Below are positions 26,586-26,653 of a stretch of DNA of 32,392 bases, in pieces; the stretch's first letter is position 1; each line of letters starts with the position of its first letter. Origin of the DNA: Marine Group II euryarchaeote MED-G34 (GTDB lineage Archaea; Thermoplasmatota; Poseidoniia; Poseidoniales; Thalassarchaeaceae). The DNA lies in contig NTJT01000013.1 of NCBI GenBank assembly GCA_002457605.1, positions 1 to 32,392 on the forward strand. Direction: 5' to 3'. The translations under genes and the position numbers were made by a program. The notes under the pieces are model-generated. The model ran no database searches, had not been told where the DNA came from, and worked only from the letters and a program-made list of their open reading frames with translations.

Positions 26586-26602
26586 GAGGGTTGATAACCC
26601 TC
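26586..26602. repeat. Inverted repeat just upstream of the gyrB TATA-like box
   Basis: The arms are GAGGGTT (26586-26592) and AACCCTC (26596-26602), separated by GAT, with a perfect 7-base match. The core GAGGGTT recurs in both arms of the second, longer palindrome at 26628-26653. That makes four copies in alternating orientation around the TATA-like box, as expected for paired operator sites. Confidence 0.6.
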
Positions 26603-26612
26603 GGCCTACACC

Positions 26613-26621
26613 AAATTATAG
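26613..26621 (+). promoter_or_regulatory. TATA-like box of the gyrBA operon
   Basis: AAATTATAG (26613-26621) is the only good TATA-like element in the aroD-gyrB gap on this strand. Transcription would begin about 25 bases on, near 26642, giving a leader of roughly 28 bases before ATG 26670. The box is bracketed by two inverted repeats that share GAGGGTT. Confidence 0.45.
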
Positions 26622-26627
26622 GTGCGC

Positions 26628-26653
26628 TGAGGGTTCCCCTAAGGGAACCCTCA
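26628..26653. repeat. Perfect 11-base-arm palindrome over the predicted gyrB transcription start
   Basis: The arms are TGAGGGTTCCC (26628-26638) and GGGAACCCTCA (26643-26653), with a CTAA loop. Its centre (26640.5) is about 24 bases from the TATA-like box, that is, on the expected start of transcription. A protein bound here would block initiation, and under strong negative supercoiling the arms could extrude as a cruciform. It lacks a T tract, so it is not a simple terminator of anything upstream. Confidence 0.65.

Follow-up and report, generated by a model that had tools for sequence, protein, structure and literature searches.

A conserved hairpin ahead of archaeal gyrBA probably acts in the gyrase mRNA as a control element, not as a pair of DNA operator sites

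The gyrBA locus and its promoter

The source genome is a metagenome-assembled genome of Thalassarchaeaceae (Marine Group IIb, Poseidoniales), a host group among the most abundant archaea of the ocean; the assembly is 1.03 Mb long, with a completeness of 66%. The window, which is the whole stretch of 32,392 nucleotides that was analyzed, carries gyrB and gyrA as one operon, with a tRNA-Ser gene on the 3' side of gyrA and a divergent neighbor on the other flank. The order hypothetical gene, aroD, gyrB, gyrA is common to all relatives checked, including Poseidoniaceae. The features of the locus are as follows.

25661-26473, minus strand: putative aroD (type I 3-dehydroquinate dehydratase, a name read from the sequence), divergent neighbor of gyrB
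26586-26602, no strand assigned: short palindrome GAGGGTTGATAACCCTC (GAGGGTT-GAT-AACCCTC), exact 7-bp arms
26589-26599, plus strand: predicted TATA-type promoter element of gyrBA, GGTTGATAACC, the core of the short palindrome
26614-26623, plus strand: predicted transcription start zone of gyrBA (start of the element plus 25-34 nt)
26628-26638, plus strand: 5' arm of the hairpin, TGAGGGTTCCC, 11 bp
26639-26642, plus strand: hairpin loop CTAA, differing between relatives in both sequence and length
26643-26653, plus strand: 3' arm of the hairpin, GGGAACCCTCA, 11 bp
26670-28622, plus strand: gyrB, ATG start, 650 amino acids, the gene presumed to be under control
28632-31328, plus strand: gyrA, 898 amino acids, in one operon with gyrB

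A preliminary description of this DNA reported two perfect inverted repeats with a shared GAGGGTT core and arms of 7 and 11 bases, and both are exact (26586-26602 and 26628-26653). They are the sole GAGGGTT..AACCCTC sites in the assembly (1.03 Mb, 66% completeness); the whole-genome scan that had been proposed as a route to a regulon returned these two sites upstream of gyrB and none further. The same description placed the palindromes on either side of the only TATA-like box, at approximately 26614-26620. This box is unconserved in relatives and was rejected; the true promoter element appears to be the core of the short palindrome.

In Thalassarchaeaceae the promoter element takes the forms GGTTGAATAACC, GTTTATATGCC and GTTTATGAACC, and in every sequence of the family it starts 34-41 nt upstream of the hairpin core. 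The distance of the hairpin is nearly fixed to the promoter element and variable to the gyrB start codon. A promoter consensus derived from the starts of protein-coding genes was abandoned because longest-ORF starts are too inaccurate, and tRNA genes were used instead. A weight matrix was built from the gyrB elements of the relatives and run over 30 tRNA upstream regions of the source genome. The best match fell at -35 to -31 in 15 of these regions, and another four had it at -40 to -36; the highest scores were at about -33. Since a matrix made from gyrB finds an element approximately 33 nt upstream of tRNA genes, the element is a general TATA-type promoter element of the lineage, and the GGTTGAATAA-like element upstream of many tRNA genes provides a usable promoter model for this uncultured group. 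Upstream of gyrB itself, the best match is at 26589 on the plus strand, with 9.5 bits.

With the core of the short palindrome as the conserved promoter element, transcription of gyrBA is expected to start at about 26614-26623, a prediction made by analogy with the tRNA promoters of the source genome and assuming a tRNA leader of 0-8 nt. The long palindrome is therefore not centered on the start, as had been thought. It lies wholly downstream of the predicted zone and would fold into a hairpin close to where the gyrBA mRNA begins.

The outer pairs of the short palindrome are unconserved. Among 55 distinct elements from relatives their pairing fractions are 0.11-0.55, and at least five contiguous outward pairs around the promoter core are found in only three. 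We judge the outer arms to be a chance extension of the promoter element. The proposal that the two palindromes act as an operator pair is not supported, as the short palindrome is unconserved beyond its core and the core is the predicted promoter element itself.

Other palindromes lie nearby. A third one, CAGGCCTATAGGCCTG, which the preliminary description did not list, occupies 26522-26537; at the same site, relatives of genera g1 and g4 carry unrelated yet palindromic sequences (TTTCCATTGTATACAATGGAAA and ACCCCTCCTTTGGAGGGGT). Any perfect palindrome of at least 7 bp occurs there in 27 of 129 sequences, so it is not family-wide. In a genome of Poseidoniaceae (G040, L103), a 10-bp palindrome about 120 nt before gyrB, TGGGGGTATG-TTTA-CATACCCCCG, encloses a TATA-like element, and this arrangement resembles the short palindrome at 26586-26602.

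Conservation of the long palindrome

The RNA of positions 26620-26700 has a predicted folding energy of -27.3 kcal/mol (z -3.0). Within 172 kb of the source genome, the long palindrome is the sole perfect hairpin of at least 10 bp with a loop of 3-5 nt. As approximately 0.7 such hairpins are expected by chance, length alone is no proof, and it is conservation that excludes chance. Among similar perfect hairpins elsewhere in the 172 kb, the single divergent intergenic case examined is without the promoter-hairpin layout.

We found gyrB in 133 of 148 Thalassarchaeaceae genomes. Its 5' end is readable in 128; in the other five it lies outside the assembly. The hairpin is present at the gyrB start in all 128, of which 43 were retrieved through the hairpin pattern and the remainder through gyrB coordinates regardless of the hairpin. 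Only three copies are imperfect, all in genus g10 (G021, G060 and G063). The hairpins fall into seven arm classes in which the changes are compensated in both arms. The class A arm, TGAGGGTTCC, is invariant in six genera, and one arm class is invariant in about 90 genomes. The others are TGAGGACCCCC (g3), CGAAGGTTCCC (g10), CAAAGGGCCCC (g8), CAGGGGGTATC (g5), CAGAGGGTATC (g2) and, in the Poseidoniaceae genus g17, CAGGGTATCC; one genome, G015, carries a one-pair variant, TGAGGGTCCC.

Covariation was analyzed over 30 distinct hairpins of 25 nt, aligned without gaps; the three imperfect copies of g10 were set aside, as were hairpins of any other length. Nine of the 11 pairs have changed on both sides and 99.1% of cells are paired. 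The covariation score is 0.600, compared to 0.260 ± 0.021 for shuffled alignments and at most 0.183 for slid partners; both the paired cells and the score exceed every shuffle. The aligned hairpins are related rather than independent, which makes the percentages somewhat flattering; a stronger argument lies in how many separate arm classes there are. Aligning relatives in search of compensated arms, as had been suggested, thus supports the long palindrome and not the short one. Likewise, the idea of a dedicated gyrBA control element survives for the long palindrome, which is compensated and generally occurs once per genome, and is lost for the short.

Of the 148 family genomes, 80 have the class A pattern, in a single copy save for G028 and G096; the g3 pattern was matched in 16 genomes. 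Among 171 Poseidoniaceae genomes, a search with one arm class, the g17 type, returned only the two g17 genomes. No comparable long hairpin is present in 17 other Poseidoniaceae gyrB leaders that were read, some of which have shorter or differently placed hairpins. Two further Poseidoniales genomes (loci L044 and L047) carry a 7-bp hairpin, GGTGCTT-TGCG-AAGCGCC, from about 40 to 23 nt before gyrB and following a TATA-like TTTATGTACC; this is possibly the same element spelled in another sequence.

No regulon emerged: in 13 genomes of the genus, with the gyrB site subtracted, the half-site is not above its reversed control, and the source genome yielded no second site with the arm sequence. In G028, a second class A hairpin (TGAGGGTTCCCCAAAGGGGAACCCTCA; contig C5, 10534-10560, or L269, 1501-1527) lies far from gyrB, at the 3' terminus of what looks like a glycosyltransferase gene. 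It is too long for chance.

Folded RNA or DNA site

Symmetric changes in the arms cannot by themselves distinguish a hairpin from the site of a dimeric protein. A dimeric transcription factor could bind the inverted repeat just past the start and block or slow RNA polymerase, and such a co-evolving site would also acquire symmetric changes. The invariance of TGAGGGTTCC in six genera and a position fixed to the promoter rather than to the start codon speak for this reading; nearly frozen arms go beyond what structure alone would demand of a hairpin and are more typical of a DNA site. The spacing of the half-sites, however, varies by 3 bp even inside a genus, and bases that are added are usually paired. 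The spacer between the 10-bp arms measures 3-6 nt, with variation inside single genera, and 17 of the 20 distinct spacers of at least 5 nt have Watson-Crick ends. Spacer bases appear to be added as pairs, as would be more natural for a folded hairpin than for an operator with two rigidly placed sites.

The exceptions to perfect pairing also bear on this question. Across 67 distinct hairpins, the ten outer pairs show seven G.U, no A.C and five other departures. The seven G.U pairs are a small sample and not all independent: they represent four or five lineages, with three of them in G106 and two in a single genus. A palindrome maintained at the DNA level predicts equal numbers of G.T and A.C, so the observed ratio favors pairing in the sense RNA. 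We take the G.U bias as moderate evidence for RNA pairing. It counts against a DNA operator, as do the single arm site in the source genome and the lack of a regulon in the 13 genomes. Weighing the variable paired spacers, the G.U bias and the predicted upstream start against the frozen arms, we place an RNA leader first and a DNA operator second, and consider the latter unlikely but worth keeping in view.

Gyrase makes negative supercoils, and its genes in bacteria are known to be under supercoiling feedback. A homeostatic role has been described (PMC9348778). The preliminary description raised the possibility of a cruciform-forming topology sensor. On this reading, the palindrome would extrude under negative supercoiling and repress gyrBA, closing a feedback loop. 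A perfect palindrome does lie close to the predicted start, and its fold as single-stranded DNA is stable (-15.6 kcal/mol, z -4.5). On the other hand, G+C-rich arms of 11 bp extrude slowly, and the seven G.U against no A.C point to RNA in this small sample, where a cruciform would predict equal numbers. Furthermore, the sampled Poseidoniaceae leaders precede the same gyrase operon without the hairpin. A cruciform sensor is thus very improbable.

In many relatives the loops occur as reverse-complement pairs within genera: TAC/GTA, TAA/TTA, ATA/TAT and TTT/AAA. It is as if the whole hairpin flips, which suggests template-switch mutation at a perfect palindrome, and the perfect pairing could be partly maintained in this way. 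In the extreme, a stable 5' hairpin might have no regulatory role, stabilizing the mRNA or keeping the leader open while template-switch repair does most of the work of perfecting its arms. The mutually reverse-complementary loops, a sign of flipping, are consistent with such a history, and bacterial 5'-terminal stem-loops slow mRNA decay (PMC3792030). Against it, selection is needed to account for a hairpin that is present in 128 of 128 genomes, keeps its distance to the promoter and has arms that hardly vary in about 90 genomes. We give this explanation little credence.

Based on these observations, we lean towards the long palindrome being an RNA leader element that sets gyrBA expression. 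Transcription would start approximately 25-34 nt downstream of GGTTGATAACC, so that the RNA would begin 5-14 nt ahead of the hairpin, and an open leader of 16 nt would follow between the hairpin and the gyrB AUG. The hairpin would then set either the level of the gyrBA mRNA or its translation. It may shield the 5' end of the mRNA against 5'-to-3' decay, or it may offer a place for docking next to the region where ribosomes load. That the arms hardly change across six genera suggests that something reads their sequence; as the loop drifts in this group of genera and the arms stay nearly constant, we infer that a host factor also reads the stem.

Gyrase exchange and comparison with known systems

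The GyrB tree disagrees with the genera. In genus g7, the GyrB proteins of G161 and G164 are 70% identical, whereas GyrB of G164 is 88% identical to that of G040, a member of Poseidoniaceae. For aroD the opposite holds: 77% identity between G161 and G164, and 37% between G164 and G040. The discordance between GyrB and aroD recurs in g9 and g4, and the genomes involved in gyrBA exchange are G161, G164, G119, G121, G085 and G015 (L274-L284). Between G161 and G164, the last 100 nt before the ATG are 78% identical and the gyrB DNA 65%. In pairs with the same type of gyrase, the corresponding values are 80% and 93% (G161-G162), and 79% and 86%. In g4, g7 and g9, both gyrase types are found behind class A hairpins.

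Because the flanking genes and their order are unchanged, the replacement of gyrBA must have occurred in place. These comparisons indicate that gyrBA has been exchanged between lineages of Thalassarchaeaceae and Poseidoniaceae, with the promoter and the hairpin kept. In the simplest reading, the host chromosome owns both promoter and hairpin, and these have outlived the enzyme, which weakens the case for recognition of the hairpin sequence by gyrase itself. The natural swap separates the control region from the enzyme and speaks for an element that responds to its host rather than to any one gyrase. We tentatively propose, as a possibility that we hold with considerable doubt, that a host factor reads the gyrBA leader hairpin and adjusts gyrase dosage, and that this module stayed while the gyrase genes were replaced from another family.

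The hairpin joins the cis-acting leader hairpins, a known kind of element, and the gene it precedes is of unusual interest. Among named elements, the closest is the gyrA RNA motif (RF01740), a candidate structured RNA listed for Pseudomonas only (PMC2864571). The two share only the association with a gyrase gene: the present element is a single hairpin, archaeal, and located before gyrB. A search of Rfam, including RF01740, gave nothing at the gathering threshold in the window or in the loci of seven relatives, and the best sub-threshold matches belong to unrelated families.

With the bacterial 5'-terminal protective stem-loops of the ompA type, the element, if transcribed as predicted, would share a hairpin at the 5' end of the leader followed by an open ribosome-loading region. 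It differs in its archaeal host and in arms so strongly conserved in a group of genera that they exceed the need of protection alone. Operators of archaeal repressors that lie at the start or downstream of it likewise combine an inverted repeat at the start with a fixed distance to the promoter; here, in contrast, the half-site spacing varies with pairing inserts and there are no other genomic sites. The supercoiling-controlled gyrase promoters of bacteria have in common with the hairpin that it, too, would couple gyrase level to topology; to our knowledge, that control has been described as a property of the promoter and not of a conserved leader hairpin.

In the open-access literature, we found no description of this element, of an archaeal gyrB leader or of its autoregulation. 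According to a survey of archaeal gyrases from 2022, adaptations of individual genes following the acquisition of gyrase had not been investigated (PMC9348778). For the question of how a gyrase of bacterial origin is wired to archaeal gene control, the hairpin provides a concrete, conserved and testable element.
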